Source: Sulfuricurvum sp. (GTDB taxonomy: Bacteria; Campylobacterota; Campylobacteria; Campylobacterales; Sulfurimonadaceae). From it: a DNA stretch of 37,673 nt. A program made the position numbers and the translations under genes. Shown piece after piece: positions 978 to 21,361 of this stretch. The number at the start of each line of letters is the position of its first letter. The stretch's first letter is position 1. The stretch lies in the NCBI RefSeq assembly GCF_028688295.1, contig NZ_JAQTYM010000001.1, positions 119,533 to 157,205 of the forward strand, written 5' to 3'. The notes below the pieces were generated by a model. It saw nothing but the letters and a program-made list of their open reading frames with translations, did not search any database and was not told the DNA's origin.

Positions 978-1325
978 ATGATCAAAAAAGTTTTAATATT
1001 TGTTTTTTTAATGGCGGGCTTATCTCTTTTAGAAGCAGTTGATAATTCTAAAGGTGCCACTATTTTTAATGAACGCGGCTGCGTAATGTGCCATGCTAAT
1101 GATGTCGATATGATCGGACCCTCGATCCGAACAATTGGTATCCGTTATAGTGGAAACGAAAATGCACTTGTCTCTTATCTAAAAGGGCAAGGACAACCGA
1201 TCATTTATCCAGAACGTGATGCCATGATGCGTCCTCAGCTTATGAAAATAGGAAATCTGTATGAAGAGGAATACCGCTCATTAGCTCGATATATGATTCA
1301 AGCGTTTATGCGTGTCGATTTTTAA
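978..1325 (+). CDS. Monoheme class I cytochrome c
   Basis: This 115-residue protein has a signal peptide (cleavage probably after LEA, residue 20) and one CXXCH site (CVMCH, residues 35-39). A DAMMRPQ segment near residue 82 supplies the likely distal methionine, as in c551/c552-type cytochromes. It would be a soluble periplasmic electron shuttle. A GGAG ribosome site precedes the ATG. Only 48 bases separate it from the 12-heme cytochrome, so the two are probably cotranscribed. It may carry electrons between the inner-membrane and outer-membrane multihemes of the cluster; that role is inference. Confidence 0.85.
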   Translation: MIKKVLIFVFLMAGLSLLEAVDNSKGATIFNERGCVMCHANDVDMIGPSIRTIGIRYSGNENALVSYLKGQGQPIIYPERDAMMRPQLMKIGNLYEEEYRSLARYMIQAFMRVDF

Positions 1326-1373
1326 TCCGTTTAGCGGACAGTAGTTTATTTAAAAAAGAAGTGGAGATAGTTT

Positions 1374-2594
1374 ATGCGTAAACGAATGAGAACAACAGCA
1401 ATAGCTCTTGCGGCAGTGGCTGGGCTAATGTTTGCTGTTTTGGCGAGTGCAGAGAGTGATCCTGCCAAAGGAGCTCCTACTGCAGATGAACGTCCAGTTT
1501 TTGAACCGCATTTAAAAAGTGGTAAAACTGTTGTTCATCCCCCGTATGAGATGGCAAAAGCCGATAAAGATTGTTCTTTTTGCCATACTGAAAAAGATGC
1601 TAAAAGTGGCGCTTTGAAAATGGATATGCCTGATCTGTGTAATCAATGTCATGAAGGTAAAGATACAAAGAAATACATTCATGGTCCTGTCGGTGCAGGT
1701 GCGTGTACCGCGTGCCATGACCCGCATGAGTCAGAGAATGTGAAATTACTCCGTTTTTCAAGCATTAATCAGTTGTGTACATCATGTCATGCGGATAAAG
1801 GACATTTTCTTAAATCGACCAAAAATATCCATCCGCCGGTTCAAGATCAGTGTACCAATTGTCATGATCCACACACGGAAAATTTTAAATTTCAGCTAAA
1901 AGCCGATGGAAAAAAAGATTTGTGTCTTATGTGTCATGTCGATAAAAAAGAGCATATTGCTACGGTAACTCACAAACATGGTGCAATGGACCGTCCAAAG
2001 CAATGTCAAGAGTGTCATGACCCTCATGGAAATGGGGCACCTAAAATGTTGAAAAAAGATACAACTAAAGATCTTTGCTTATCGTGTCACAATGATAAAA
2101 TGGCAGCAGAGGGAAGTAAGTTGACCAATATGGATAAGCACCTTAAAGATAATCCGGATCATCACGGGCCGATTCTTTGGGGTGACTGTGCCGCATGTCA
2201 TAATCCGCATGGTTCTGATAACTTAAGAATGTTGAAAAAACCGTTTCCGGAAACATTTTATGCAAAATTTGACGAAAAAAGTTATATTTGTTTCGAGTGT
2301 CATGAACCATCAAAAATTCAGAATGAAATGACGACGACAGCAACAAACTTCAGAAATGGTGAAAAAAATATGCACTTTGTTCATGTTAACAAAGATAAAG
2401 GGCGCTCTTGTCGTGCCTGTCATGATTTCCACGGAACCAAAGAATATCCGCACCATTTACGGACTAAAACAAGCTTTGGTGCGATTAACTTTCCAATTCG
2501 ATACATTGAAACACCTGCCGGTGGATCATGCGCACCGGCTTGCCATGCGCGTCGAGGATATGATCGTGAAAAGCCGATTGAGAATCTAAAATAA
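1374..2594 (+). CDS. 12-heme periplasmic or secreted cytochrome c
   Basis: This is a 406-residue protein with a cleavable signal peptide (LASA, about residue 26). It has eleven CXXCH motifs from residue 67 onward, many followed by DPH or NPH, which supply distal histidines as in the doubled-CXXCH/cytochrome c3-like families. A twelfth, C-terminal site is CAPACH (residue 386), a CX3CH motif. Heme spacing of about 25-30 residues predicts an extended wire-like protein of bis-His hemes. It is a close paralog of the membrane-anchored 12-heme protein at 17050 but lacks that protein's uncleaved anchor. It sits between the monoheme cytochrome and the 8-heme cytochrome and ends directly at the latter's start codon. 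Its likely role is electron transfer across the periplasm. Confidence 0.9.
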   Translation: MRKRMRTTAIALAAVAGLMFAVLASAESDPAKGAPTADERPVFEPHLKSGKTVVHPPYEMAKADKDCSFCHTEKDAKSGALKMDMPDLCNQCHEGKDTKKYIHGPVGAGACTACHDPHESENVKLLRFSSINQLCTSCHADKGHFLKSTKNIHPPVQDQCTNCHDPHTENFKFQLKADGKKDLCLMCHVDKKEHIATVTHKHGAMDRPKQCQECHDPHGNGAPKMLKKDTTKDLCLSCHNDKMAAEGSKLTNMDKHLKDNPDHHGPILWGDCAACHNPHGSDNLRMLKKPFPETFYAKFDEKSYICFECHEPSKIQNEMTTTATNFRNGEKNMHFVHVNKDKGRSCRACHDFHGTKEYPHHLRTKTSFGAINFPIRYIETPAGGSCAPACHARRGYDREKPIENLK

Positions 2595-3623
2595 ATGTAT
2601 CCCCCTTTTTTTAGAGGGGGGTATTTCCCCCTTCTGTTTATCCCTTTTTTCATGATGATTACATCCTTTTCTCTCCACGCGGCATCTCTTGAAATTATCC
2701 GTCCTCTGGTTAAAACTGTTATTGAAGAGAGTGAAATTAATGTTGTGGTCAAAGTAACCAATCCGGAAGTGAGCAAAGTGGTGTTTGTGGATGGAATGGG
2801 GCGTGAGTTTCACCGAGATATCAAAAAAGAGAAGTTGATCTATTGTCAGTCGATGAAAGCGAAAATGGGGAACAATTCGATTAGTGTCATAGCGTATAAA
2901 GGAACGGATGTTAAAGAGAGTAAAACCGTAGAGGTTTATTTTCGCGCGGAGCTTTTCGGAGGAGTTAACGAAGAACCCTCAGGATACCGAAAACACACTT
3001 TTCATACGGATAAAGATGAGCAGTTATGTAAAAAATGTCATAACATGATTTCTAATACGGCGAAATACGTGATTCCAGAAAATGCGGAAGATTCTACTTG
3101 TTATCAATGCCATAAAAATCTTGTTAATCGTGCAAAGTCCCACGCACCTGCAGTCAACTGGCTTTGTACTGAATGTCACACCGGACAATCGGGAGAATAT
3201 AATGCAGGAGAGGGTATCTCGAAGTTCTCTGCACCTGATCCGATTATGGAACGCTGCTTCAATTGCCATGAAAATATCAAAGAGGTATGGTTCGCACGAA
3301 AATCAGAACACGGTCCGGTACGGGATGGACGCTGTAATCGTTGTCACAATCCGCATTCCTCTAATGAGCTCTTTTTCACCCGTAAACCATTATGGGATTT
3401 GTGTACGACCTGTCACTCCGAGAAAGCCAACGGTGCTCATGTCATCAGCAGCTTTATCCGTGATAAATCACATCCTACTCAGGGTAAGCCTGATCCTTCT
3501 CGTCCGGGAAGAGAGCTGGTTTGTTCAGGATGTCATGATCCCCATGGGTCTGAGGGGATATTTCTTTTGCGTTCAAAAGGGAAAACCGCCTTTAGTATCT
3601 GTTCTCGTTGTCACCAAAAGTAA
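2595..3623 (+). CDS. 8-heme cytochrome with N-terminal beta-sandwich domain
   Basis: This is a 342-residue protein. The ATG directly abuts the upstream stop (TAA then ATG), suggesting translational coupling; no ribosome site is visible. An ATG at 2652 would leave a signal peptide with no charged N-region, so 2595 is preferred. A signal peptide (to about residue 30, LHA) is followed by a cysteine-poor domain (about 32-118) that looks like an Ig-like beta-sandwich, then eight CXXCH motifs (residues 145-336), two with CHNPH/CHDPH. It is homologous to the 7- and 8-heme proteins at 18563 and 19513. The beta domain may dock it to a partner cytochrome or to the barrel; this is inference. A strong hairpin lies just inside the coding start. 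Confidence 0.88.
   Translation: MYPPFFRGGYFPLLFIPFFMMITSFSLHAASLEIIRPLVKTVIEESEINVVVKVTNPEVSKVVFVDGMGREFHRDIKKEKLIYCQSMKAKMGNNSISVIAYKGTDVKESKTVEVYFRAELFGGVNEEPSGYRKHTFHTDKDEQLCKKCHNMISNTAKYVIPENAEDSTCYQCHKNLVNRAKSHAPAVNWLCTECHTGQSGEYNAGEGISKFSAPDPIMERCFNCHENIKEVWFARKSEHGPVRDGRCNRCHNPHSSNELFFTRKPLWDLCTTCHSEKANGAHVISSFIRDKSHPTQGKPDPSRPGRELVCSGCHDPHGSEGIFLLRSKGKTAFSICSRCHQK
2613..2635 (+). promoter_or_regulatory. Strong hairpin just after the octaheme start codon
   Basis: AGAGGGGGG (2613-2621) pairs with CCCCCTTCT (2627-2635) over 9 bp with one G-T wobble and a TATTT loop. A further C5 tract at 2601-2605 could compete for the same G tract. The hairpin lies 18 bases after the ATG and would affect translation initiation or uncouple it from the upstream gene. 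Confidence 0.45.
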
Positions 3624-3998
3624 ATTTTAAATAAATTTTACCGTTATCTAATCTTTTTTTTCTCTATTTTGAGAAGAATCTTTTGTATTAAAAGACGTAT
3701 ACTATTTCTTTCATAACTAATTTTCTATTCGCTTGATTTATTTTGTTTATACCTCGACAAAACAAGGCACTCACGCTTCTCGTACATTCTCTGCGTGGTT
3801 GCAAATAGAAGTGCTTAGGTGCTAGCAAAGCCATTTTATTCAAATTAACAAGCTATATATTTATATTTATAATATCACATTTTAGTATCATATAACGGTA
3901 TGTAATATTATTGATAGGTAGTAATGGTATAAACTTAATTAACACTTAAGGGATATAGCATTACAATTGGGTTACAAAAATATTCAGGGAGGTACGCA
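3624..3998 (+). other. Long A/T-rich leader with a structured element
   Basis: These 375 bases between the octaheme and the tetraheme gene hold no recognised gene. The most structured part is 3765-3834. GCACT-CACGC (3767-3776) can pair with GCGTG (3793-3797) and AGTGC (3810-3814), giving a continuous 10-bp helix interrupted on one side by a 12-base bulge, with a 16-base apical loop. The palindrome TGCTAGCA lies just downstream. A TATACT at 3698-3703 is a possible -10 and would give a leader of about 290 bases. The minus strand of the same segment holds a 48-codon ORF (3688-3834) without a ribosome site. The rest is A/T-rich and featureless. AGGGAGG before 3999 is the ribosome site of the tetraheme gene. 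Confidence 0.4.
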
Positions 3999-4739
3999 AT
4001 GGTAACCTTTGGAAAAGTAATGCGATCTGTTGTATTGTTGGCAGTAATGGGGGTTAGTGCTAATGCTGCACCAGGAATTGTTCTAACGAAACATAATTTG
4101 TCGGGGACGAGTACAACGTCGGGCATTAAGTCGTCGGATGGTACGAGTGGGGATGTGTGTGTCTATTGTCATACTCCGCACGGATCGAATACCGGTTTTG
4201 CCGGAGCACCGATCTGGAATAAAGCGAATATGGATACAGCTGCCTTTACGCTGTACAATGGAGGAACGACTGTTGCTGGCGGCACAACTATCGATCAGCC
4301 GGGTGATGTCTCAAAAGCATGTCTAAGCTGTCACGATGGGGTCAGTGCGATAAACTCTGTTATCAATGCTCCCGGTTCAGGACAGTGGGTTGATATTAGT
4401 GGTGGCGCTACGACGGCTGATTTACGGGCATTTCTATACCCAACAGGTCAGTCTAAAGCTGCCGGCACTATTTTAAATATGGCTACGGCAACGACGAACG
4501 GTGTTTCAAATATTGGAAAAGATCTTCGTAATGATCACCCGATAGGTGTTATTTATACGCCGGGTACAGCTGGACTGAAAGTAACGACTAGTATGATTGG
4601 AACAGTAACCATCGCAAGTGTACTTCGCAGTAATAAAGTAGAGTGTAGCACTTGTCACGATCCTCACGAAACAAATGCGATGTTTCTCCGTACGGCAAAT
4701 ACAAATAGTGCACTTTGTACTAGTTGTCACGACCGATAA
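3999..4739 (+). CDS. Tetraheme cytochrome, candidate extracellular filament subunit (OmcE-like)
   Basis: This is a 246-residue protein with a signal peptide (ANA, about residue 24). It has four CXXCH sites at residues 54, 108, 215 and 240: CVYCHTPH, CLSCHDG, CSTCHDPH and CTSCH. The mature N-terminus carries TKHNLS, and a DHPIG motif precedes heme 3. This layout (TKHNLS, CxxCHTPHG, PIWNK, CLSCHDG, DHPxG, CSxCHDPH) is that of the tetraheme family containing Geobacter OmcE, which polymerises into extracellular heme filaments. Loops between hemes are Gly/Ser/Thr/Ala-rich, consistent with secretion. A strong ribosome site (AGGGAGG) and its own leader suggest high expression. It heads the operon with two NHL proteins, a PPIase and a barrel. 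Polymerisation is inferred from family resemblance, not shown. Confidence 0.8.
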   Translation: MVTFGKVMRSVVLLAVMGVSANAAPGIVLTKHNLSGTSTTSGIKSSDGTSGDVCVYCHTPHGSNTGFAGAPIWNKANMDTAAFTLYNGGTTVAGGTTIDQPGDVSKACLSCHDGVSAINSVINAPGSGQWVDISGGATTADLRAFLYPTGQSKAAGTILNMATATTNGVSNIGKDLRNDHPIGVIYTPGTAGLKVTTSMIGTVTIASVLRSNKVECSTCHDPHETNAMFLRTANTNSALCTSCHDR

Positions 4740-4740
4740 A

Positions 4741-4807
4741 AGCAACCCTTTAGGGGGTCGCTCTTCGGATCGATGATCTATAAAGATATCGCTATATTTT
4801 TATAGAT
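4741..4807 (+). terminator. Two tandem hairpins after the tetraheme gene
   Basis: AGCAACCC (4741-4748) pairs with GGGTCGCT (4755-4762) with one mismatch. ATCTATAAA (4776-4784) pairs perfectly with TTTATAGAT (4799-4807). Neither is followed by a good T tract. They may act as partial terminators or 3' stabilisers that keep the first cistron more abundant than the downstream genes. Confidence 0.45.
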
Positions 4808-4854: not shown

Positions 4855-5925
4855 ATGCGATTACACTGTCTTTCACAGATTATGGTAGCGATTGTAGCCA
4901 TAACAGTTATGGGAGGATGTGCGATTGATAAAGTCGAGCCTCGTCACAGTATCATCATTCCCCCGGCGCCCGAAGAGCCTAGGTTGGTTTTTATTGATGC
5001 TTATAGGGGAGAATCGACATTTGTCCAAGGTCCAAATGCTTTGGATGTCCTGATAGGTGATACGCAGATTGATGTTGGTAAAAACATTAAGAAACCTTAT
5101 GGTGTGGGCGGTTTTGGAGGACGGATATATGTTGCTGATACTGGAAGTGCGGCAGTTTTCGTTATTGATCCAAAAAAGAAGAAGGTTTCTCTGATTGGTG
5201 ATCAGCCCGTAGGGAAGCTCGTGATGCCGGTTGATGTCGCATTTTCAAAAGATGGGACGCTTTATGTTTCCGATACGGTACTTAAGCGGGTTCATTCATA
5301 CGATCAAAATGGGACCTTTAAATCAGCGTATGGGATGAAAGATGAGTTTTACCGACCAAGCGGAATTTCGGTAAATTCGGATTTGGGGCTTCTCTATGTT
5401 GTGGATACTTTAGCGCATAATATCAAGGTTTTTTCTCTGGCAGGTCAGCTAGTTTCAACGATTGGAAAACGGGGAGACGGAGACGGAGAATTTAACTATC
5501 CGACAAATATTGCGATTGATAACCGTAATGGGAATGTTATCGTTTGCGATACCCAGAACTTTCGGATACAGATACTGGATAAAGACGGTAAGTTTCTTGG
5601 AAAATTTGGCGAGGTTGGGGACAAAGCGGGAATGTTTGCCCGTCCAAAAGGGGTTGGCGTCGACAGTGACGGGCATATTTATGTCGTAGATGCCGCGTTT
5701 AATAATGTCCAGGTATTTAATGATAAAGGTGAACTGCTCTTATTCTTTGGTACCCCTGGGACAGGACCGGTGCAGTTTCAACTTCCTGCAGGACTTTCAT
5801 TTGATGAACATGATCGCCTGATTATTGCCGAAGTGTTTAGTGGACGGGTTCAGGTTTTTCAGTATATCAGTGAAAAATGGAAAAAAGAGAATCCTAATGA
5901 ATATCAAAAGCTCAAGCAGCAGTAA
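4855..5925 (+). CDS. NHL-repeat six-bladed propeller lipoprotein
   Basis: This is a 356-residue protein. The N-terminus ends in a lipobox (MGGC, Cys22), so it is probably lipid-anchored. Six NHL-type repeats follow, each with the pattern P-x-G-(I/V)...G-x-(I/L)YV-x-DT...V-x-V(F/I), for example IYVADTGSAAVFVID and LYVVDTLAHNIKVF. They should close into a six-bladed beta-propeller. The ribosome site is AGGAG/AAGGA. No heme motifs are present. NHL propellers recur next to filament cytochromes and outer-membrane conduits in Geobacter-type and syntrophic-sulfate-reducer (Oet-type) EET clusters, where they are thought to help assembly or partner binding. It is paralogous to the NHL protein at 8613 but differs in being lipidated. 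Confidence 0.85.
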   Translation: MRLHCLSQIMVAIVAITVMGGCAIDKVEPRHSIIIPPAPEEPRLVFIDAYRGESTFVQGPNALDVLIGDTQIDVGKNIKKPYGVGGFGGRIYVADTGSAAVFVIDPKKKKVSLIGDQPVGKLVMPVDVAFSKDGTLYVSDTVLKRVHSYDQNGTFKSAYGMKDEFYRPSGISVNSDLGLLYVVDTLAHNIKVFSLAGQLVSTIGKRGDGDGEFNYPTNIAIDNRNGNVIVCDTQNFRIQILDKDGKFLGKFGEVGDKAGMFARPKGVGVDSDGHIYVVDAAFNNVQVFNDKGELLLFFGTPGTGPVQFQLPAGLSFDEHDRLIIAEVFSGRVQVFQYISEKWKKENPNEYQKLKQQ

Positions 5926-5934: not shown

Positions 5935-6867
5935 GTGAAAAAAATACTATTATGGATTATGGTATGTCTCTCGCTTTCAGCCGTAGAAGTAAAAACAGTG
6001 GTTGCAACAGTGAATGGAAAGGCAATTACTAAAAAAGAGGTAGAGCGGGAATTAAAGGCTTTACTTCCATCAGCCTCTTATCACGGCGGTGTAAATGAAG
6101 AGAAAAAAAATAAACTTAAGAAAGATGCGCTTGATAATCTGATTACCAAAGAGCTATTTTATCAAAAAGCACTAGCTGAAAAAATTGATGTTTCTGATCT
6201 TGAACTTGTCGAGTATGAGAAGGCGTATATCCAGTCATTCGGGGGTCGGAAAAATTTTGATAAAACTCTGAGAGAAGCAGGTATCTCATTACTGGAGTTT
6301 CGCCGAGAAATAGAACGTGAAAAAATGATCCAAAAGCTCTATGAAAAACGGATTCGATACTCAGTTACTGAGAGTGAACTAAAGCGTATGTATGAAGAAA
6401 ATCGCCAAAAATACCGTGAACCCGAAAAAATTAAAATTGCTCTCATATTCAGAGAGGTTGATCCAAAAGATTCTAAAAGTAAAGCCGAAGCAAAAGCAAA
6501 AATTGGTGAAGCGTATTCAAAAATTAAAAGCGGTATCCCTTTCGGTGACGTTGCCTATAAATATTCGACTGCCATGAGTCGTGTCAAAGGTGGAGAAATG
6601 GGATATATTCATCGTGGCATACTCCAAAGTGCAGAAGTAGAAAAAAAAGTATTTTTAATGAAAAAAGGGGAAATGAGCAAGATACTCGAATCGAAGGAGG
6701 GGTATTTTATCATTCGATTTGATGACAAAAAAGAGGCTCACCAATATTCGTATGATGATGTCAAAGTTAAAATGAAAACCGAGCTTATTGATGAACGCGA
6801 GTTGGAGCGTAAAGAAGTTATGCTAGCTGAATTACGCAAAAATGCCGTCATCAAAAATAGCCCATAA
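5935..6867 (+). CDS. Periplasmic SurA/PpiC-type peptidyl-prolyl isomerase
   Basis: This is a 310-residue protein starting at a GTG (5935), 9 bases after the NHL gene. A signal peptide (about 1-17) is followed by a SurA_N/trigger-like helical chaperone region (about 22-140: NGKAITKKEVE, then DALDNLITKELFYQKA) and one parvulin PpiC domain (about 158-255) with the typical GGEMGYIHRG segment. Parvulin PPIases of this type assist folding of outer-membrane barrels and secreted cytochromes, and PPIase genes are neighbours of filament cytochrome genes in Geobacter. Here it probably serves the barrel encoded next and/or the tetraheme and 729-residue cytochromes. It is Lys/Glu-rich and has no second PpiC domain. 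Confidence 0.88.
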   Translation: MKKILLWIMVCLSLSAVEVKTVVATVNGKAITKKEVERELKALLPSASYHGGVNEEKKNKLKKDALDNLITKELFYQKALAEKIDVSDLELVEYEKAYIQSFGGRKNFDKTLREAGISLLEFRREIEREKMIQKLYEKRIRYSVTESELKRMYEENRQKYREPEKIKIALIFREVDPKDSKSKAEAKAKIGEAYSKIKSGIPFGDVAYKYSTAMSRVKGGEMGYIHRGILQSAEVEKKVFLMKKGEMSKILESKEGYFIIRFDDKKEAHQYSYDDVKVKMKTELIDERELERKEVMLAELRKNAVIKNSP

Positions 6868-6879: not shown

Positions 6880-8595
6880 ATGGGGAAAAAATCGGGATGG
6901 GCCTGCGTAGTTATGATCATTGCTTTACCTGTGTTTGGAGGTCAGAATTTTTACGGTAACATTGAATATGGTTACGCTGAGGATCAATTTTCATCTGATT
7001 CCGATTACGATTCGACCCGTTCTTCATTTACCCAAAACTATATGCTTGGATTTCGTGATTACATCTACAGCCCGAAATTACTTAAATACGATTTACAGTA
7101 CGGAATAGCTATGAATGATCTCAAAACAGATAATGGAGACTATACGACAAGCGCAAATTCTAAAAATAGTACCTATCGTACGGATCTTTCTTTTCTTAAC
7201 TCTTCTGATTATCCATTTACGCTTTCGGCTGAAAAGACCTCAAGTCCCTATTCAAGTAGTGATTCGATCGCGACGCTGACAACTAATCAGACAAGTGAAC
7301 GGTACGGGATTAACGGATCGCTGCGAACACGATCGTTCGATCTCTCTTACGCTTTGGACACATCAACAATGGACCGTACTGATCCATATTCGGTCGAAGT
7401 ACGTGACAATCAGAATTTTCGTCTCAATATCTCCAAACAAGATCCTACTAGTGGATTTCGGGTTTCGCTCTCCGAATTCAACCGTAATTATATTCGCGAT
7501 GACAAATATAGTGCCATAAGAGATGACTGGAGCGATAGAGGAGAGGAAATACGGGCGGATTACACTTGGCACCCGAATAAAGAGTGGAACATTGGGACAA
7601 ATGGCTCGTATTATACTAGCTCCTATTCGGATTTATCGACAGTATCAGCCGGTGGAAACGTCCAGTGGCGTCCAAACGATAAATTTATTGCCAGCGGTTT
7701 ACTATTTGGATCTAAAATGAGTGCAGCTGGGAATGATTACACTAATTTTAACGCAGCTTTTAATTCGATGTACATGATAACTCCCGAACTATCGACGAAT
7801 CAGAGTGTCAGCTATTTTCAAAGTAACTCTGATAACTATGTCTCTAAGCTCACAATGGTCTCAGCAGGAGGTACTCATACCAAGCAGTTTGAAAATAATC
7901 TGATTGTTAGTACGAGTGCAAGTCTTGTGGCTCGGATGCAGCAGTTAACTAATGAACTCAATAGTACAGCTAATTCTGATTTAACCAGTTATGGAACGAC
8001 AATCGGGACCAATGTCTCGAAACAGTTTGGTTCCTCCAACACACGGGTATTTGCTGCTGCAAACTATTATGTGTTGAGTGGAGCAGATGATACTGTCCGT
8101 TTTTCGGGCAATATGGGTATTAGCGATAATTATGGGAAGTTCGGATATTCAGTAAGCGGATTTTACACCAGAGAGGAAACAACGATAAATCTTCCAGATA
8201 CGGAGGAGACACAGGTGCTAGAGATGGAATCGGTGGGGATGGATTCTAGTGTACGCTATAATTCATCCATCGGCTTTCAAGGTCAATTTAGTAGTAATGC
8301 CGGCGTTACCTATTCACGTAACCGATATACTGATCTTGTAACAACGCGTTTATATCCGCATGCCGATATTAGTTTTAACTATCAACTTATGGACTCACTC
8401 ATGTGGACGTCAGGTGCCAATGTATCGCGTGATATGAGTTATGACTTAACAAATTACGGGATATTTTTGGGGATTAATTACCAGTTGCGAAGTGTAACTA
8501 TTGTAACAGGAGCTAAGATGTCGGTCAGCAGCGGTGCAGATATACCGGAGATGATCAATAAAAATTTATTTATTCGGGCATCTCGCCCATTTTGA
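6880..8595 (+). CDS. Outer-membrane beta-barrel, candidate cytochrome conduit
   Basis: This is a 571-residue protein with a short signal peptide (about 1-20) and no cysteine-histidine heme motifs. The mature chain is a series of alternating amphipathic strands separated by Ser/Asn/Asp/Tyr-rich turns (for example YMLGFRDYIYSPKLLKYDLQYG, 7045-7110, and SFDLSYALDT) and ends in RPF, with the terminal Phe expected of a barrel. The length suits about 20-26 strands, comparable to porin components of porin-cytochrome conduits (MtrB, PCC and OetI types), though sequence similarity to any of them cannot be judged here. The start ATG lies 12 bases past the PPIase stop with a poor ribosome site. Position between PPIase/NHL and NHL/cytochrome genes supports a conduit role; this is inference. 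Confidence 0.75.
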   Translation: MGKKSGWACVVMIIALPVFGGQNFYGNIEYGYAEDQFSSDSDYDSTRSSFTQNYMLGFRDYIYSPKLLKYDLQYGIAMNDLKTDNGDYTTSANSKNSTYRTDLSFLNSSDYPFTLSAEKTSSPYSSSDSIATLTTNQTSERYGINGSLRTRSFDLSYALDTSTMDRTDPYSVEVRDNQNFRLNISKQDPTSGFRVSLSEFNRNYIRDDKYSAIRDDWSDRGEEIRADYTWHPNKEWNIGTNGSYYTSSYSDLSTVSAGGNVQWRPNDKFIASGLLFGSKMSAAGNDYTNFNAAFNSMYMITPELSTNQSVSYFQSNSDNYVSKLTMVSAGGTHTKQFENNLIVSTSASLVARMQQLTNELNSTANSDLTSYGTTIGTNVSKQFGSSNTRVFAAANYYVLSGADDTVRFSGNMGISDNYGKFGYSVSGFYTREETTINLPDTEETQVLEMESVGMDSSVRYNSSIGFQGQFSSNAGVTYSRNRYTDLVTTRLYPHADISFNYQLMDSLMWTSGANVSRDMSYDLTNYGIFLGINYQLRSVTIVTGAKMSVSSGADIPEMINKNLFIRASRPF

Positions 8596-8612
8596 GAAAA
8601 GGAGCCATTCGT

Positions 8613-12431: not shown

Positions 12432-15400
12432 ATGCCGAATCAACTCAAAAAAATCGGGGCATTTCTAGTCTCAATGCCATTTATGGTGGCATTATTACTA
12501 ACCTTTGGTATTGCAAGCGGTGTTGCTACTTTCATCGAAAATGACTACGGGACGGAAACCTCTTGGGCGTTAGTTTATGGAGCTAAGTGGTTTGAACTTA
12601 TCCAGATAATGCTGGGAGTTGGGATTGTGGCGAATATCATCCGTTTTCGTATGTTTACTCTCAAAAAACTTCCGACGTTTATTTTTCACTCGGCGTTTTT
12701 ACTGATTCTCATCGGTTCAGGTGTGACCCGTTATATGGGATATGAAGGGGTAATGCATATTCGTGAGGGAGAGAGTGAAAATCGTATGCTCTCCTCTGAG
12801 CCATTTTTACAGATCGATGCGGTACGAGGTTCTCAAAAATACCATGCTGAAAAATCGATTTATGCAGCCGGACTTGGTGAAGGGGATCTAAACGAACAGC
12901 TTGATATCGATGGCAAGCCGGTTACGATCCGTTTCAAAGAGTTTATTAAAAATGCGGCTAAAACAGCCATTGAAGATCCTGCCGGTAAGCCGGTTGTAAT
13001 GTTTGTCATTCCTACCCCTAGCGGTCCGGAGAAGTTTTTCCTCGGGAAGGGTGAATTTGTAGATATCGGTCCATTGGTCGTCTATTTTGATAAAGAGCAC
13101 GATACGGCACGTCCTTATATTGCTATTACTGAAAAAGAGGGGCATTTTAGCTTTGTCTCAAATCGCGATGTAAGCTGGTTGCGTATGGATGATCAGCAAG
13201 CAGGGGGGGCAGCAGCCGGAAATGAAGGCGAATTTGCTGCACGTCATCTTTATACGATTAATGGTGTGCAGATGGCAACCAAATCAGTGCTCTCTCATGG
13301 TGTGATAAAAGTTATTCCAGAGGATGAGTATCGTGCATCTATGAAGGTAGACATGAAAATACAAGGGCAAGAACTTTCTGCTCTCGTAGTCGAAGTTGAA
13401 TATAATGGAGAGAAACGTGAAGTGGCTCTAATGGGTATGGGAAAACGGTTTAAGGGCTTTACGGAGACCTTCCGTATGGGAGATGCTGACATCTCATTGG
13501 AGTGGGGAGCCAAACAAATAGAGCTTCCATTTTCTCTTGAACTAAATGATTTTGTGATGGAGAAATACCCAGGATCTATGAGCCCCTCTTCGTATGAGAG
13601 TCATGTGACACTCATTGATCCTGCGAATGGGAAAAATGACCCCTTTAGGATTTTTATGAACAACCCACTTGAGCATGGCGGATATAAATTCTTCCAATCT
13701 TCATTCGACAAAGATGAGATGGGGACAGTTCTCTCCGTCAACCATGATCCGGGAAAAATTCCAACTTATATCGGGTATGCATTGTTGGCATTGGGGCTAT
13801 TTTTAAACTTTTTCAATCCTAATGGTCGCTTTGGAAAACTGGCACGTACACGCTATGACCGCTCTGCTGCTTCTGTTGTTATGGGATTAGTGTTGTTTGC
13901 CGGGCTTTTTTCTGCTCAGCCTGCACAAGCGTATGCGGAATATCAAAAAGAGCAGGGTATGGATCTCTCCACTGCTATTGATACGGTGAAAAAATTTAAT
14001 TATGATTATGCAGAAAATTTCGGCACGGTTTTGGTTCAGGATGCGGGTGGCCGGATTAAGCCAATGGATTCTATGGCTAGTGAAATTGTTAATAAACTGG
14101 CAGGTCAAAATACCATCATGGGGCTTTCACACAATCAAGTGATTTTGGGTATGGCATCCAAACCAGTCCTTTGGCAAAAGATTGCGATGATCAAAGTCAA
14201 GCATCCTAAGATTAAAACGATGCTTGGTATTAATGCTGAAAAGAAATATATTGCTTTTAATGATGTTCTTGATCAAGCGGGTGTGTATAAGATAGGAGAT
14301 GCTGTTCAGGAGGCAATCCAAAAACGCCCTGCTGAGCGTGATGAGTTTGATAAAGAGTTGATTAAGCTTGATGAGAAACTAAATATTGCTTACAGTGTCT
14401 ATTCAGGTGAATTTATGCGGATTTTTCCTTTAGATGGAGACAAAGCAAATACATGGCACAGTCCCGGAGAAGCAATTAAATCTTTTCCTACGGAGGATAT
14501 CCAAAAAATCACACAGATTCTTCAACAAAATTATGTTGGTGTCAACGAAGGGATTGAGAAAGGGAATTGGGGGACTGCCAATGATGCTATTAAAATGATC
14601 ATCGGTTACCAAAAAGTTAACGGAGCCACGATCTATCCTTCTGAATTCAAGGTAGAGGCGGAGCTACTTTATAATAAACTTTCTATTTTTGAACGGTTGA
14701 TCCCTGTTTATCTTCTCTCTGGGCTTATTCTTTTGGGACTTATTTTTGCCCGCCTTTTCAAGCCGTCTTTAAATTTGGATAAGGTACAAAAAATTGTCTT
14801 ATTAATTTTAGTCCTCGGCTTTATTGCCCATACGGCGAATCTCGGATTACGCTGGTATGTTTCAGGCCATGCCCCTTGGAGTGATGGGTATGAGTCGATG
14901 ATATATATTGCATGGACGATTATTTTAGCAGGGATCATGTTTGCACGCCAATCTGAATTTGCGATTGCATCGACGGGAATACTCTCCGGTATTGCCCTTT
15001 TTGTAGCGCACCTTAACTGGCTTGATCCACAAATCACTAATTTGGTACCGGTACTTAAATCATACTGGCTCTCAATTCATGTATCGATCATTACTTCAAG
15101 CTATGGCTTTTTAGGACTGAGTGCATTATTGGGACTTATATCACTGGTCTTGTTTATTATGCTTGGTCGAGTTAAAAACGATGAGACAAAGCGTCAAGTC
15201 ATCATTAGCATTCGTGAGGCTACCCGTATTAGTGAAATGTCGATGATTATCGGTCTCTCTCTTGTGACCGTCGGAAACTTTCTAGGAGGTGTATGGGCGA
15301 ACGAGTCATGGGGACGCTACTGGGGTTGGGATCCAAAAGAGACATGGGCATTGGTGACGATACTCGTCTATGCGACAGTGGTGCATCTTCGGTTTATCCC

Positions 15401-15647
15401 TAAACTTAATTCGGTATTTTCATTTACCGTCGCTTCGGTAGTTGCTTACAGTTCGGTTATCATGACCTACTTCGGTGTCAATTATTACCTTTCCGGTCTT
15501 CACTCCTATGCGGCGGGTGATCCGGTACCTGTACCGGTATGGGTTTATTATGCTGTTGCTATTGTGATAGTATTGATCATTTTAGCATCAAAAAACCGTC
15601 ACAAAGTTTCGGGAAGTCTTAAAAATACAAATACAGCAGAGGGTTAA
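12432..15647 (+). CDS. ccsBA: Fused cytochrome c synthetase CcsBA (System II)
   Basis: This 1071-residue fused ResB-CcsA protein exports heme and ligates it to CXXCH cysteines of apocytochromes in the periplasm. The N-terminal part has transmembrane helices with a conserved-type His (FHSAFLL, about residue 86) and a large periplasmic ResB region (about 110-440). A middle periplasmic stretch (about 495-755) leads to the CcsA part. It carries the tryptophan-rich WWD heme-handling segment (WGRYWGWDPKETWAL, about 960-974), the two external histidines (GHAPW about 813; GLHSY about 1022) and a membrane His (SIHVS about 882). The length is typical of Campylobacterota CcsBA. Lying between two multiheme operons, it may be a dedicated synthetase, including for unusual heme sites. 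Confidence 0.95.
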   Translation: MPNQLKKIGAFLVSMPFMVALLLTFGIASGVATFIENDYGTETSWALVYGAKWFELIQIMLGVGIVANIIRFRMFTLKKLPTFIFHSAFLLILIGSGVTRYMGYEGVMHIREGESENRMLSSEPFLQIDAVRGSQKYHAEKSIYAAGLGEGDLNEQLDIDGKPVTIRFKEFIKNAAKTAIEDPAGKPVVMFVIPTPSGPEKFFLGKGEFVDIGPLVVYFDKEHDTARPYIAITEKEGHFSFVSNRDVSWLRMDDQQAGGAAAGNEGEFAARHLYTINGVQMATKSVLSHGVIKVIPEDEYRASMKVDMKIQGQELSALVVEVEYNGEKREVALMGMGKRFKGFTETFRMGDADISLEWGAKQIELPFSLELNDFVMEKYPGSMSPSSYESHVTLIDPANGKNDPFRIFMNNPLEHGGYKFFQSSFDKDEMGTVLSVNHDPGKIPTYIGYALLALGLFLNFFNPNGRFGKLARTRYDRSAASVVMGLVLFAGLFSAQPAQAYAEYQKEQGMDLSTAIDTVKKFNYDYAENFGTVLVQDAGGRIKPMDSMASEIVNKLAGQNTIMGLSHNQVILGMASKPVLWQKIAMIKVKHPKIKTMLGINAEKKYIAFNDVLDQAGVYKIGDAVQEAIQKRPAERDEFDKELIKLDEKLNIAYSVYSGEFMRIFPLDGDKANTWHSPGEAIKSFPTEDIQKITQILQQNYVGVNEGIEKGNWGTANDAIKMIIGYQKVNGATIYPSEFKVEAELLYNKLSIFERLIPVYLLSGLILLGLIFARLFKPSLNLDKVQKIVLLILVLGFIAHTANLGLRWYVSGHAPWSDGYESMIYIAWTIILAGIMFARQSEFAIASTGILSGIALFVAHLNWLDPQITNLVPVLKSYWLSIHVSIITSSYGFLGLSALLGLISLVLFIMLGRVKNDETKRQVIISIREATRISEMSMIIGLSLVTVGNFLGGVWANESWGRYWGWDPKETWALVTILVYATVVHLRFIPKLNSVFSFTVASVVAYSSVIMTYFGVNYYLSGLHSYAAGDPVPVPVWVYYAVAIVIVLIILASKNRHKVSGSLKNTNTAEG

Positions 15648-15679: not shown

Positions 15680-15824
15680 ACCCTACTATTTACTCTCCAT
15701 ATATCACAAACATATCATATTACAAATTATAATGATCTTTAACCACTTTTCTAATCTATTTTTAAATTTTATTGTGCAATAATTAAAAAATCAATTTAAT
15801 TAAAATTTTAAAATGGAGCTTAAT

Positions 15825-16448
15825 GTGAAAGATAACAATGAAGGCAATGGGATCAAAAAGTTTTGGTTTGGCTGGAAGGGACTGGCGGTCTTAATTACTT
15901 TAGGGGTATTGGGAGGGATGATTATCTCCTTTGTTACGGTTGTTGCTGTTAAAGAGACATCGGGGGTAAATTTTTGCTCCTCCTGCCACTCAATGAAGCC
16001 AATGGCGGAAGCTTATCGTAATGATGTACACGGAGGGTATGGTGAGAGCGGCGTCGTTGCAAAATGTGCCGATTGCCATTTACCGCATGAATCTACGTTG
16101 GGGTATTTGGTACAAAAAGCACGTACCGGAATGTGGGATGTGTGGGTTGAATCGACGCACGACACCTCTAAGATCGATTGGCATGAAAAAAGAGATGAAC
16201 GGCGCAATTGGGTTTATGATTCGGGATGTCTCCATTGTCACGAAAACCTCCTCAGAGGAACGCGTCCTAATAAAAAAGCGTTCACTGCTCATAAAGCCTA
16301 TTTCGCTAAAAAACTGGTAGTTCAAAGTGATGAGGGAAGGGATCTGGCCCGCTGCGTGGATTGTCACAAACATGTAGGGCATTATCAGATTGAAAAGCAT
16401 CTTCCTGAGGCTCCGGAAGCTCTTCCTGATTCTTTTGAGTCCAACTGA
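15825..16448 (+). CDS. NapC/NrfH-family tetraheme quinol dehydrogenase
   Basis: The GTG at 15825 is preferred because GGAG lies 6 bases upstream; the ATG at 15813 has no ribosome site. The protein is 207 residues, with one N-terminal transmembrane helix (about 18-42) and four CXXCH sites: CSSCH (about 51, followed by SMKPM, the CXXCHxM arrangement of NrfH), CADCH, CLHCH and CVDCH. Proteins of this family oxidise menaquinol and pass electrons to periplasmic partners. No nrfA, napA or torA gene is nearby; the neighbours are triheme and 12-heme cytochromes. A CymA-like role as the entry (or exit) point between the quinone pool and the EET chain is therefore likely. Confidence 0.9.
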   Translation: MKDNNEGNGIKKFWFGWKGLAVLITLGVLGGMIISFVTVVAVKETSGVNFCSSCHSMKPMAEAYRNDVHGGYGESGVVAKCADCHLPHESTLGYLVQKARTGMWDVWVESTHDTSKIDWHEKRDERRNWVYDSGCLHCHENLLRGTRPNKKAFTAHKAYFAKKLVVQSDEGRDLARCVDCHKHVGHYQIEKHLPEAPEALPDSFESN

Positions 16449-16467
16449 TATGCAGGAGAGAAACAGA

Positions 16468-17022
16468 ATGACGCAATCCGTAAAAAATAAAATCATAGCT
16501 ATCACAGTAGTAGTTGTTATTATCCTAGGAATGACAGTTGTAGGAGGATGGGAAAAGTTAGGGCGATTTGGCATTATCAGCCAAAATATTGCTCTGAATC
16601 TTATGCACCCTTATCATGGTGACAACCGCCCTTTGGAGAAGATTACAGCAACGTATATCAAAGCCAATACGGGGACCACTAAGGTTATCAATGAGGCCTA
16701 TCTTCCTGCAGCATTAAAACCGATTAAAAAATATGCGCATCCCCCGTTTGCTATGGGTGCTTGCGCTGTCTGTCATGCACCGAATCGTTCCAAACCTGCG
16801 GCAATTGTGACCCATACGGTTGGAGAGTTGTGCTATAAATGTCATGAACCTCTGGGCGGTATCACAGCCAGAGGTAAAGAGATCGATTGTAATAAATGTC
16901 ACAGTCCGCATCATGCTGATAAAGAAAAATTGATCCGAAATACGGTCACGGATGTCATCTGTCCGGCAGGGCGGTTTAATGCAGAAGCAACTTTACCTGA
17001 GATGGGACATGATGAGCATTAA
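16468..17022 (+). CDS. Membrane-anchored triheme cytochrome c
   Basis: This 184-residue protein starts at the ATG at 16468 behind AGGAGAG; an in-frame ATG at 16450 lies upstream of that site. One N-terminal transmembrane helix (about 8-28) lacks an obvious cleavage site, so the protein is probably anchored in the inner membrane facing the periplasm. It has three CXXCH sites: CAVCH, CYKCH and CNKCH. The anchor-proximal segment (WEKLGRF, then a short helix) and the segment before heme 1 (LPAALKPIKKYAHPPF) match the 12-heme protein encoded next, so it looks like a short paralog equal to that protein's first three hemes. It probably relays electrons from the NapC-like protein. Confidence 0.85.
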   Translation: MTQSVKNKIIAITVVVVIILGMTVVGGWEKLGRFGIISQNIALNLMHPYHGDNRPLEKITATYIKANTGTTKVINEAYLPAALKPIKKYAHPPFAMGACAVCHAPNRSKPAAIVTHTVGELCYKCHEPLGGITARGKEIDCNKCHSPHHADKEKLIRNTVTDVICPAGRFNAEATLPEMGHDEH

Positions 17023-17049
17023 TCTCCATAGAGGAAAGAAACAATTATT

Positions 17050-18558
17050 ATGAAAAAATACGGTCTAAAAGCGATACTCCTCTTATTATTACTGGTGGTA
17101 GGAATTGCTTTTTATCAATTTGATGCCGGAGAAAAATTCGGACGTTTTATGAGTATCATGAAAGAGATAGCGACAAATGTACTGAATGCTGATCACGAAG
17201 AAAATATCGATATTAGTGACGAAGAGCTTGCTGGGATCGATGTGGAACAGATCGCAAAAGATCTGGAATCACCTAACAGTGAAACGGCAATAGAAGCGGC
17301 TGCACCGACGGAGATCCCACGAGATGAAATCCGTTCCGAAGAGCGGCCTACCCACACTAAAACGATGATTAAAGAGGCAAAACTCGTCGATTTGAAAGAT
17401 TTACCTGCCAAATTCAAACCGCTCAAAAAACACCTTCATGAGCCATTTAAGATGGGAGCATGTCAAATCTGCCATATCTCTAAGGGGGATAATCCTGCTG
17501 CTTTAGTTAAAAAGAACATACAGGAGATCTGTTATGAGTGTCACAAAACCAAATACACGAAAGCGTATGATCACAAGCCGGTTAAAGATGGTGCCTGTAT
17601 GTCGTGTCATGATCCGCATCAGTCCGATACCCCAAAAATGCTTAAAGGTAATTCGATTAATGATACTTGTCTGAAATGCCATGATAAACAAAACGGTGCA
17701 AAAGGGGTGAGTAAGTTCATTACAATGAACGGAAAATTCAAACACAAACCAGCCGAAAAAAGTTGTTTAGAGTGTCACGATCCGCATACATCGAACTATA
17801 AAACATTGATGAAAAAAGAGGTGGGACTGGAGTTTTGTCTCGATTGTCACAGTTCACTAAAAGATCATAAAAATATGCGTCAGTGGATTAATAATGCAAA
17901 ATACAAACATGGAGCAGTGAGTGATAGCAAAAATAAATGTCTCGAATGCCATGATCCCCACTCCTCGAATCATCCGAATATCCTAAAGAAAGATCCGGTA
18001 CAGGTGTGTTTGGAGTGTCATAATAAATCACTCAAAGCAGAAGAAGATGGAGGGATGCTGATGAATATGGCCCAGCATCTCAAAGAAAATCCCAATTGGC
18101 ATAAGCCGATACGAGATGCTAACGGTAAAGATGGCGGATGCGGTGCTTGTCACGATCCACACGGATCGGATAACTTCAGTATCCTCAAAAAATCGTTTAC
18201 CAAAAACTTTTATGCCAATCTTGAAAACAAAGACTTTTTTTGTTTCAAATGTCACAAAGAGTCTAAAATCACTGAACAATATACGGAGAATGACGAAATT
18301 ACCAAGTTTCGTGACGGTGGTGTCAATTTACACAATCTTCATGTAAACGACCGTAAAGGGCGTGCATGTCGGGCATGTCATGACGAACACGCCTCTAAAA
18401 ATAAACATTTGATTCGTGATTTTACCGATTTTAATAGCATCAAATTTCCGTTGCGCTTTGTCGATGCCCCTAATGGCGGTTCCTGCGCCCCGGCATGTCA
18501 CAAAAAATTCGAGTATGACCGTGTGAGTCCTAAAGGGATTGGGAAAAGAGAGGGATGA
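17050..18558 (+). CDS. Membrane-anchored 12-heme cytochrome c
   Basis: This is a 502-residue protein. The N-terminal hydrophobic helix (about 7-23) has no clear signal-peptidase site and is followed by GEKFGRF and an acidic, proline-containing linker (about 50-115) that could span periplasmic distance. Eleven CXXCH motifs begin near residue 138, many as CHDPH, and the last site is CAPACH (about residue 479), a CX3CH motif within GGSCAPACH. The heme domain is collinear with the secreted 12-heme protein at 1374. It lies 27 bases after the triheme gene and just before the 7-heme gene. It probably bridges the inner membrane and the conduit. Confidence 0.9.
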   Translation: MKKYGLKAILLLLLLVVGIAFYQFDAGEKFGRFMSIMKEIATNVLNADHEENIDISDEELAGIDVEQIAKDLESPNSETAIEAAAPTEIPRDEIRSEERPTHTKTMIKEAKLVDLKDLPAKFKPLKKHLHEPFKMGACQICHISKGDNPAALVKKNIQEICYECHKTKYTKAYDHKPVKDGACMSCHDPHQSDTPKMLKGNSINDTCLKCHDKQNGAKGVSKFITMNGKFKHKPAEKSCLECHDPHTSNYKTLMKKEVGLEFCLDCHSSLKDHKNMRQWINNAKYKHGAVSDSKNKCLECHDPHSSNHPNILKKDPVQVCLECHNKSLKAEEDGGMLMNMAQHLKENPNWHKPIRDANGKDGGCGACHDPHGSDNFSILKKSFTKNFYANLENKDFFCFKCHKESKITEQYTENDEITKFRDGGVNLHNLHVNDRKGRACRACHDEHASKNKHLIRDFTDFNSIKFPLRFVDAPNGGSCAPACHKKFEYDRVSPKGIGKREG

Positions 18559-18562
18559 TGCA

Positions 18563-19516
18563 ATGAACCGCATACTTATCAAAGCACTTTGGTTGATCAC
18601 ATTGTCTGTTTCAGCTATCATGGCTGTAGAGGGTGTGGAGATATTTCCCGTTATGGATAAAAAGATTTACAGGGAAGGGCATGTCTCGATTACACTCAGA
18701 TTAGAAGATCGGAACATCAGCCGTCTGATGATTGTGACTGATAAGAATGAAGCTTATCCTGTGGTACTGAGCAAAGAGTGTGACAATGTCTGTTCAACAA
18801 CATTCAAACTTCATCCAGGCGAGAATACAATTCGGGTCAGGGGATACGTAGGGGAGCGATTGGCGTATGAAGAAAAAAATGACCTTTTTTTTGTTTCTCC
18901 ATCGCATAAAGGGGCAAAAATACCTCCCGCTCACTTTCAAGAACAGTTTTTTCATACGGATGAGAATGAAAAAATGTGCTCTAAATGTCATGATATGAGT
19001 ATCAATGAAGAGAAAGGGGTAGCCTTTATTGACGCCGAGGACTCTAACTGTTACGGCTGTCATAAACATATTATAGACGAAAAATACGCTCATGCCCCCG
19101 CACTTAATTGGCTCTGTACAGGCTGTCATTCTACTCAAGGCACTCGCTTGGCGGGGGAATCTAAATTTCGGACGGCCAAGCCGATTGCCTCGATCTGTTT
19201 TAGCTGCCATGACAAAAGCAAACAGATATGGGATGCAAAAAAATACCGACATCTCCCTGTCGATTCGGGGCAGTGTACTCGGTGTCATAATCCGCACGCG
19301 GCTTCAAATGCTATGTTTAACCATGAATCTGCTGTTTCTTTATGTCTGGGATGCCATGGGGACAAAAAATTCTCTTCAGCAATACGAGGCGATTCCAAAT
19401 GTCCGGGAGAAGAGAGGGGAAGTTGTGTGCAATGCCATAATCCACACGCTTCGGACGCGAAATTCTTTTTAGATGATCCACATAAACGTGGAGCCGGAAA
19501 AGCTGCAGTACGATGA
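18563..19516 (+). CDS. 7-heme cytochrome with N-terminal beta domain
   Basis: The ATG at 18563 is chosen for its ribosome site (GAGAGGG) and signal peptide (about 1-21); the open frame extends further upstream into the previous gene. The protein is 317 residues: a beta-sandwich-like domain (about 22-115), then seven CXXCH motifs (CSKCH about 138 to CVQCH). It aligns with the 8-heme proteins at 2595 and 19513, sharing DSNCYGCH, HAPALNWLC and CTRCHNPHA, but ends with a Lys/Arg/Gly tail in place of the eighth heme and has a shortened loop around heme 7. It may be a specialised variant or a decaying duplicate. Its stop overlaps the next start by 4 bases. Confidence 0.85.
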   Translation: MNRILIKALWLITLSVSAIMAVEGVEIFPVMDKKIYREGHVSITLRLEDRNISRLMIVTDKNEAYPVVLSKECDNVCSTTFKLHPGENTIRVRGYVGERLAYEEKNDLFFVSPSHKGAKIPPAHFQEQFFHTDENEKMCSKCHDMSINEEKGVAFIDAEDSNCYGCHKHIIDEKYAHAPALNWLCTGCHSTQGTRLAGESKFRTAKPIASICFSCHDKSKQIWDAKKYRHLPVDSGQCTRCHNPHAASNAMFNHESAVSLCLGCHGDKKFSSAIRGDSKCPGEERGSCVQCHNPHASDAKFFLDDPHKRGAGKAAVR

Positions 19517-20511
19517 GGGCAATAAAGAGTATGAGAAAAAAGCTTTTTTGGGCGGGAATGATCTTTACCGTATCTCTTTTGTGGGGAGGGGCTGATTCGG
19601 GTATGCAATTACTAGCTCCGGCATCTTTGTCGGTGTATCATGAACAGAGCGCTTCTGTCGTAGTAAAGGTGACATCGGCGACGATAGAGAAGATCGTTAT
19701 TACAACTGAAACGGATCAACAGATTAATATGTTGGCGGTTCAGGGTAGAAATACTTATTGCAAAACGATTCGGCTCTTGCCGGGCGAAAACAAGATAACC
19801 CTCACGGCCATCGGAAAGGAGGGGGAGATCGGCAAACTCTCTACGATCATCTATCATGATATTGTTACGGAGAAAAAATACCGCTATCCCCCGGAAAATT
19901 ATTCGGTACAGATGTTTCATTTGGCCTCAAATGAGAAACGTTGTTCCCCATGCCACAAGATGGAAGTGAATGAAAGCCCGGGAGTCGCGTTTGAAAATCC
20001 TACCGATTCCAACTGCTACGGGTGCCATCAGAAACTAACTGCGCGACCTCACGGCCATGCCCCTGCTATTAATTGGCTTTGTACCTCTTGCCATCAGACA
20101 CAAAAAGGGGGAGAATACACATTTAAACTTCCCGATAAAATCGGTGAAGCGTGTCTAAACTGCCATAAAAAAGAGAAAGAGACATGGGAAGCAAAACGGT
20201 TTCACCATATGCCCTTTGATGCAAAGCAGTGCACCAGATGCCATAATCCCCATTCGGGGGAAGAGCGTTTTTATCTCAGAGCCAAACCCTGGGATTTGTG
20301 TACATCATGTCATGCCGATAAAATAAGCGGTAATCATATCATCAATACCATCATCGCTAAAACCCATCCTACACGCGGAAAACCCGATCCATCACGTCCG
20401 GGAAAGGAGTTGGAATGCATTAGCTGTCATAATCCGCATGCTTCGGATACACGTTCGTTGATTATGGAAAAAAGCCCAATGAGTATATGTGCTAAATGTC
20501 ATAAAAAGTAA
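19513..20511 (+). CDS. 8-heme cytochrome with N-terminal beta domain
   Basis: This is a 332-residue protein. The ATG at 19513 overlaps the previous stop (ATGA); an in-frame ATG at 19531 would give a more usual signal peptide (MRKKLFWAGMIF) and is a valid alternative. A signal peptide is followed by a beta-sandwich-like domain (about 30-120) and eight CXXCH motifs: CSPCH, CYGCH, CTSCH, CLNCH, CTRCH, CTSCH, CISCH and CAKCH. The heme region, including the KPDPSRPG(R/K)EL segment before heme 7, is nearly collinear with the 8-heme protein at 2595. It was probably copied together with the 12-heme gene. Its likely role is periplasmic electron relay to the outer-membrane complex. Confidence 0.88.
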   Translation: MRAIKSMRKKLFWAGMIFTVSLLWGGADSGMQLLAPASLSVYHEQSASVVVKVTSATIEKIVITTETDQQINMLAVQGRNTYCKTIRLLPGENKITLTAIGKEGEIGKLSTIIYHDIVTEKKYRYPPENYSVQMFHLASNEKRCSPCHKMEVNESPGVAFENPTDSNCYGCHQKLTARPHGHAPAINWLCTSCHQTQKGGEYTFKLPDKIGEACLNCHKKEKETWEAKRFHHMPFDAKQCTRCHNPHSGEERFYLRAKPWDLCTSCHADKISGNHIINTIIAKTHPTRGKPDPSRPGKELECISCHNPHASDTRSLIMEKSPMSICAKCHKK

Positions 20512-20611
20512 TAATGAGATAAAAGAAAAAAATATAATTCTAAACGGATAATAAAGATATATTAATCTTTTTTCCTATAGAATAAACAATAGACTATATT
20601 AAGGAAATGTT

Positions 20612-21361
20612 ATGAAAAAGATTCTTTCTATTGCCCTAATCAATGCCATGTTATTGAGCACGGCGGCAGTGAGTTTATCGGCACAGTCAGGAGACATGAA
20701 GGAACAGGCAGTAAAAGCGGCGCAAGCCAAAGCTGATGCGGGAGATCCGGATGGACAGTTTGCTCTAGGGGGATTTTACTATCAGGGTATGATGACGAAA
20801 AAAGACGATGCGAAAGCACTCTATTGGTTTGAAAAAGCAGCTAAGCAGGGGCATGACAAGGCGCAGTTCAATCTTGGGTATATGTATTATGACGGTCGCG
20901 GGACAGCTAAAGACCTTAACAAAGCGTTTGGATGGTTCAAAAAGTCGGCTGAGCAGGGAGATACCAAATCTGAGCTTTACATCGCGGATATGTACTACCA
21001 TGGAAAAGGTACGAAGCAAGATTATCAAGAAGCATTTTACTGGTATAAGAAAACTGCAGATGAGGGGTATGCTAAAGCGCAGAATGAAGTTGCAAAAATG
21101 TACCGTGCCGGTTTAGGAATTAATAAAGATATGGTAAAAGCAAAAGAGTATCTGAATAAAGCATCACTCCAAAATTGTGCTGATGCGCAGTATGATCTTG
21201 GTAAAATGTATCTAACGGGTGATGGTGTAGAGAAAAATACTGAAGAAGCAAAAGTATACATGCAAAATGCGTATCTTAATGGGAATAAAGAAGCTAAAGA
21301 AGTTTTGGATCAAAACAAATGGGATGAAATTCCTCCCTACGAAAAGCAGTTATTACAATAA
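20612..21361 (+). CDS. Exported Sel1-repeat (TPR-like) protein
   Basis: This is a 249-residue protein with a signal peptide (about 1-24, LSAQ) and about five Sel1-like repeats, each with the pattern A-x-x-x-LG-x-MY-x-x-G-x-G...D-x-x-KA-x-x-W-x-x-KAA-x-x-G. Sel1 repeats stack as an alpha/alpha solenoid that binds other proteins. The ribosome site is AAGGAA. It lies 100 bases after the last multiheme gene and could be cotranscribed or have its own promoter (TATAAT at 20533-20538). It has no cysteine-pair pattern of the Helicobacter Hcp family. A scaffold role for the cytochromes is possible but not shown. Confidence 0.85.
   Translation: MKKILSIALINAMLLSTAAVSLSAQSGDMKEQAVKAAQAKADAGDPDGQFALGGFYYQGMMTKKDDAKALYWFEKAAKQGHDKAQFNLGYMYYDGRGTAKDLNKAFGWFKKSAEQGDTKSELYIADMYYHGKGTKQDYQEAFYWYKKTADEGYAKAQNEVAKMYRAGLGINKDMVKAKEYLNKASLQNCADAQYDLGKMYLTGDGVEKNTEEAKVYMQNAYLNGNKEAKEVLDQNKWDEIPPYEKQLLQ

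Follow-up and report, generated by a model that had tools for sequence, protein, structure and literature searches.

A multiheme cytochrome island of Sulfuricurvum encoding an OmcE-type cytochrome and a candidate quinone-to-surface electron conduit

A stretch of 37,673 nucleotides from Sulfuricurvum sp. (contig NZ_JAQTYM010000001.1, positions 119,533 to 157,205; hereafter the window) contains an island of multiheme cytochrome genes, which a reading made from the sequence alone had placed at 978-21361 and interpreted as a complete extracellular electron transfer system. We found ten cytochrome genes, a heme-free protein of 571 amino acid residues, two NHL propeller proteins, a peptidyl-prolyl isomerase (PPIase), a CcsBA cytochrome c synthase and a Sel1-repeat protein, all encoded on the plus strand and at or close to where that reading had put them. 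The cytochrome, NHL, PPIase, CcsBA, NapC and Sel1 labels are backed by Pfam. While this content stands, the limits were slightly too narrow and are better set at about 324-22455, as an OB-fold-like lipoprotein gene and two small cytochrome genes travel along with the cluster. The same gene order recurs in clusters of dozens of genomes, far above chance, and homologous loci resolve the island into three blocks.

Module A consists of c1 (978-1325, plus strand, as are all genes of the three modules), a monoheme cytochrome c matching PF00034; c12a (1374-2594), a dodecaheme cytochrome with MtrA/DmsE-like repeats (24 Cys; 6r2q_A, chain A of the Mtr complex, E-value of 9e-12); and c8a (2595-3623), an octaheme cytochrome with a heme-free N-terminal part (8 CxxCH; PF09699). 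Module B comprises c4 (3999-4739), an OmcE-type tetraheme cytochrome and candidate nanowire subunit; NHL1 (4855-5925; PF01436), a probable lipoprotein; a SurA-like PPIase (5935-6867; PF13616 and PF13624); the 571-residue heme-free protein, a predicted outer-membrane barrel (6880-8595); NHL2 (8592-9641; PF01436); the large cytochrome c10big (9638-11827); a small open reading frame (ORF) for an exported protein of 162 residues (11824-12312); and an island-type CcsBA (12432-15647; PF01578 and PF05140). Module C opens with napC (15813-16448), encoding a membrane-anchored tetraheme quinol dehydrogenase of the NapC/NirT family (PF03264, E-value of 4e-31, over the cut-off), and continues with c3 (16390-17022), a membrane-anchored triheme cytochrome whose start probably lies further in, at an ATG (3 CxxCH; PF09699); c12b (17050-18558), a membrane-anchored dodecaheme paralogue of c12a (24 Cys; 6r2q_A, E-value of 5e-13); c7 (18539-19516; 7 CxxCH), a heptaheme paralogue of c8a and c8b; and c8b itself (19513-20511; 8 CxxCH), an octaheme paralogue of c8a.

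Counting CxxCH motifs in the ten cytochromes gives, in gene order, 1, 11, 8, 4, 10, 4, 3, 11, 7 and 8, for a total of 67. Each of the two dodecahemes carries one CX3CH in addition to 11 CxxCH, matching its 24 Cys (12 × 2), and c10big (729 residues) holds a CX12CH and a CX7CH besides its 10 CxxCH; one of its 25 Cys, at residue 17, falls inside the predicted signal peptide, leaving 24 outside it. With these atypical motifs included, 71 hemes are predicted for the island, and the earlier estimates of about 70 hemes in all and of 10-12 for c10big were right.

c4 matches OmcE, the filament protein of Geobacter sulfurreducens (7tfs), with which it aligns at an E-value of 5e-22 in two stretches that together span most of the chain. 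Eight Cys and eight His are kept in 81 relatives of c4, one of the His in 72 of the 81, and their counterparts are visible in the alignment with 7tfs; in nearly all of the 81 the chain ends two residues past the last heme motif. c4 therefore shares with OmcE homology over the whole chain with four hemes, as well as a conserved bis-His ligand set. An entry named "putative multiheme cytochrome c" (PDB 9yuq_N, 218 residues, 16 chains) equals OmcE in closeness to c4 (E-value of 9e-23) and is probably another filament structure. The present proteins differ from OmcE in coming from Campylobacterota and in being encoded with a barrel, NHL proteins, a PPIase, NapC and CcsBA.

OmcE homology is also seen in c10big, within its N-terminal domain. 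When c10big relatives are combined into a profile, its first ~241 positions match 7tfs (E-value of 4e-34), on which basis c10big is an OmcE-like domain followed by an extension that starts where OmcE ends and, by motif alignment, carries eight further hemes. The alignment contains 24 conserved or nearly conserved His, and the N-terminal domain keeps all eight OmcE-type Cys and all eight OmcE-type His ligands; the 24 His could serve as the proximal and distal ligands, 12 of each, which supports a protein of twelve hemes. The CX12CH motif lies at residues 308-322, and Cys308, Cys321 and His322 are present in 72 of 72 relatives. At this site a plain CXXCH is found in distant relatives (Pseudomonadota, Myxococcota and others), a CX7CH in five Nitrospirota, and a CX12CH in Campylobacterota, Aquificota, the nearest Nitrospinota and other Nitrospirota, with CX13CH at locus L062. 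As aligned, the stretched site is homologous to plain heme sites, and in a midpoint-rooted tree the CX7CH rows branch between those with CXXCH and those with CX12CH. One Sulfurimonas metagenome-assembled genome (MAG) contains two tandem c10big copies separated by an 819-residue ORF and NHL2 (L087:6800-14566); their proximity in the tree shows that in-place duplication can occur in this family.

Elsewhere in the genome lies a second, core CcsBA with 45% identity to the island copy. Among 120 CcsBA relatives, copies of the island type (identity of 52% or more along most of their length) come from G033, G110, G067, G084, G094 and G097; each of these six genomes also has cluster genes, and the island synthase co-occurs with c10big. 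In Wolinella, a dedicated synthase, CcsA1, serves the CX15CH site of MccA (PMC6976685). That case resembles ours in that an enlarged heme motif in a multiheme cytochrome of a campylobacterotan adjoins its own CcsBA-type synthase, and differs in motif length (CX15CH versus CX12CH) and in cytochrome family. Given this precedent, it is plausible that the island CcsBA is dedicated to the CX12CH site. Strict dedication is not established, as synthase genes also accompany c10big relatives with a plain CXXCH.

The barrel fold proposed for the 571-residue protein is supported by an AlphaFold2 model built from 37 aligned sequences, in which 28 strands follow the signal peptide; the predicted local distance difference test score (pLDDT) is 92.1 and the predicted template modeling score 0.72. 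The chain ends in SRPF. Its best PDB match is MtrB (6r2q_B; E-value of 2.3e-10, TM-score of 0.41), with other large barrels close behind, and the protein is by prediction a large outer-membrane barrel able to hold a multiheme cytochrome. Several distant loci contain the corresponding gene, as found with a profile built for the barrel. c12a scores 120 bits against TIGR03508 (range 116-120 bits), below the 192-bit cut-off of this model of the MtrA/DmsE-family decahemes. The system resembles MtrAB of Shewanella (6r2q) in its MtrA-like dodecahemes and its MtrB-matching barrel, and departs from it in having 12 hemes instead of 10, a barrel of 28 predicted strands that lies outside PF11854 (MtrB_PioB), and no recognized protein of the OmcA/MtrC family in the cluster. 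With the SEEP-SRB1/Oet-type operons found in partners of anaerobic methanotrophic archaea (ANME) (PMC5539420, PMC10553843) it has in common multihemes, a PPIase and a beta-propeller gene, and the pairing of a conduit with candidate nanowire cytochromes; here, however, the largest cytochrome has 12 hemes, the 16- and 26-heme pair is absent and the filament candidate is of OmcE type rather than OmcS/OmcX type. The island is thus not established as a conduit of the PCC/Mtr or Oet type.

Synteny across Campylobacterota, which the sequence-only reading had proposed to compare, did yield clusters of like order: searched with the c10big profile, the core cluster is present in 10 of 397 genomes and 7 of 68 genera, a patchy distribution. 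Module B also occurs in Aquificota, in Nitrospirota and in the cultured vent bacterium Nitrosophilus labii (G151, whose second contig is 100% identical over 6 kb to an N. labii plasmid). The modules combine in several ways. A and B adjoin in G067, whose module C sits on a different contig; the complete genome G110 has A some kilobases before B, and C after B in inverted orientation; in the Persephonella loci L086 and L106, module B has next to it a napC and a 12-heme gene in divergent orientation. Of 70 loci with c10big relatives, 59 have NHL2 immediately upstream of c10big. In five Sulfurimonas loci (L066, L069, L072, L093 and L105), genes for proteins of ~790 and ~200 residues follow CcsBA in the place of module C. 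The OmcE homology of two cytochromes, the CX12CH motif, the second CcsBA, the occurrence in other phyla and the empty site described below had all escaped the sequence-only reading.

Sulfuricurvum kujiense DSM 16994 has the left flank of the island through the porin gene, whose last codons open the window, then only a gene for a 183-residue protein, then the radical-SAM gene found at 22483-24033 in the window. In the congener G009 the same two flanks are likewise parted only by a gene for a 183-residue protein, the porin being absent there. Both genomes lack the island, and the near-adjacency of the flanks identifies it as accessory. Parts of it lie at the ends of contigs in two other congeners, G019 and G033. 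In a further congener, G017, the first 6 kb of one contig are identical to a plasmid of S. kujiense DSM 16994, which places the window in Sulfuricurvum. As for signatures of integration, there is no tRNA gene in the window, and the only repeats within 1-23000 are those of heme motifs. The island CcsBA and c12a are 81% and 83% identical, respectively, to those of Sulfurimonas sp. STA_8 (L062, the same contig as G388), compared with 56% for the core CcsBA and 66% for phosphoenolpyruvate (PEP) synthase outside the island. In the midpoint-rooted c10big tree, the window pairs with L062 (Shimodaira-Hasegawa-like approximate likelihood ratio test support of 96), and an Aquificota group sits among Campylobacterota rows. 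The greater likeness of island genes and the placements in the tree favor spread by horizontal transfer, although some bins may be mis-assigned. The PEP synthase of G033 is 63% identical to that of the window, though its core CcsBA reaches 75%, a possible case of replacement or mis-binning.

Because NapC-type proteins, MtrA-like dodecahemes, a large barrel and an OmcE-type cytochrome recur together, a full wire from the quinone pool to the cell surface, as initially proposed, is the best reading, while the word "complete" is a judgment from gene content. We assign a probability of about 0.7 to the island being a modular, horizontally spread electron conduit of this kind with an OmcE-type filament. 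In such a conduit, NapC would oxidize menaquinol, and membrane-anchored c3 and c12b together with carriers of the c7/c8 type would take electrons across the periplasm. An MtrA-like dodecaheme inside the 28-strand barrel, either c12a or c12b, would cross the outer membrane, and c10big would pass electrons on to c4, which would polymerize into a filament outside the cell; c10big might join this filament to the barrel or cap it. The SurA-like PPIase and the NHL proteins may aid export and assembly, and the island CcsBA would attach hemes. Within Campylobacterota the barrel, the small ORF, c4 and the PPIase evolve fastest, as expected if they are surface-exposed, and NapC, c12a and c12b slowest.

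Several observations weigh against this conduit. PF11854 matches neither the barrel nor any other protein of the genome, which speaks against membership in the MtrB family. The surface location of the system is a deduction from its genes. In G033 the Sel1 gene comes immediately after CcsBA, and module C is missing beside module B. The structure model of c10big is of low confidence and has no fold match. Finally, a c10big paralogue in G067 stands together with a PPIase, a full-length OmcZ homologue (8d9m, E-value of 1e-58) and an OzpA-like subtilase (L047:11595-18331, also L127; partly L049/L063), not with an OmcE-type gene; the pairing with OmcE-type cytochromes is therefore not exclusive, and c10big may serve different filaments. 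The presence of OmcZ-type nanowire genes, as an OmcZ/OzpA-like pair, beside a c10big-type cytochrome in Campylobacterota is an observation in its own right. We consider only tentatively, and with more doubt than confidence, that c10big is a nanowire adaptor linking filament and barrel, with an evolutionarily stretched heme site matured by the co-travelling synthase.

It is conceivable that c10big itself polymerizes through its OmcE-like domain into a filament of 12-heme subunits, c4 being a minor or periplasmic relative. Its full set of eight OmcE-type ligands in the N-terminal domain and its rank as the best conserved surface candidate of module B agree with this; given that c4 is the only one of the two whose chain stops where that of OmcE does, that it often occurs in multiple copies, and that c10big continues straight from its last OmcE-like heme into a large extension, we find such a filament rather improbable. 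Less credible still is a periplasmic system in which the multihemes act as electron stores or as relays to soluble reductases, the barrel serves ordinary transport as a porin and there is no export at all. Many multihemes are indeed periplasmic, and surface location is deduced here. Yet the barrel shares the cluster's core with c4 and c10big, both kin of an extracellular filament protein, and a Pfam scan of the island proteins found no catalytic reductase gene.

The direction of flow bears on another alternative, in which the same conduit runs in reverse and feeds the quinone pool of these autotrophs with electrons drawn from partner cells, metallic iron or reduced minerals. NapC/NirT proteins are best known as quinol oxidases, which argues for outward flow. 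The hosts belong mostly to sulfur- or hydrogen-oxidizing groups (Sulfuricurvum, Sulfurimonas, Persephonella and Nitrosophilus), as uptake would predict, and electron uptake has been proposed for the similar PPIase, propeller and multiheme operons of ANME partners (PMC5539420). Conversely, a Sulfurimonas reduces MnO2 using sulfide (PMC9122950), which requires outward flow in that organism. Neither argument against uptake is at odds with a reversible route, but uptake as the main function seems unlikely to us.

Work on Geobacter names the attachment of cytochrome nanowires to the cell envelope as an open question (PMC10553843). In the island, genes for an OmcE-type cytochrome, a large barrel, a quinol dehydrogenase and a candidate adaptor form one cluster; they are passed between genera as a set and are found across phyla. 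If the conduit is real, nanowire-based electron exchange would extend to Campylobacterota and Aquificota, groups frequently found at vents and in sulfidic environments; if the adaptor role of c10big is real, it would supply the filament-to-membrane connection still unknown in Geobacter. Studies of cytochrome c maturation could also draw on the c10big family, in which heme-motif loops of graded length occur naturally, and the core cluster of cultured N. labii makes these proposals experimentally testable. We found no account of this cluster in Campylobacterota in openly available papers, which leaves its novelty unproven; a partial exception is a Sulfurimonas MAG with incomplete porin-cytochrome genes (PMC11748539).

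The remaining genes lie mostly at the edges of the island. Divergent from c1, the OB-fold-like small lipoprotein gene (324-785, minus strand) encodes a lipobox-like LSGC and matches Pfam below the cut-off; its 62% homologues adjoin c1 in G033 (L059) and lie at the other end of the cluster in L062. The 162-residue protein had been labelled NTF2-like, for which no Pfam family above the cut-off gives support; its gene is conserved beside its partners and adjoins c10big in 27 of 70 loci. On the right, a Sel1-repeat protein (20612-21361, plus strand; PF08238) travels with the cluster, as does a monoheme cytochrome c (21444-21731, minus strand), whose counterpart at the end of the cluster in L062 is 82% identical. 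A second monoheme cytochrome c (22000-22455, plus strand), whose homologues adjoin the cluster in L062, L079 and others, marks the right edge. Consensus promoters are uninformative overall (47 found versus 42 expected); one good match lies at 3845-3873, in the gap between c8a and c4. Outside the island, positions 27815-29440 encode a 541-residue protein that, by impression of its sequence only, resembles a YcaO-type enzyme.

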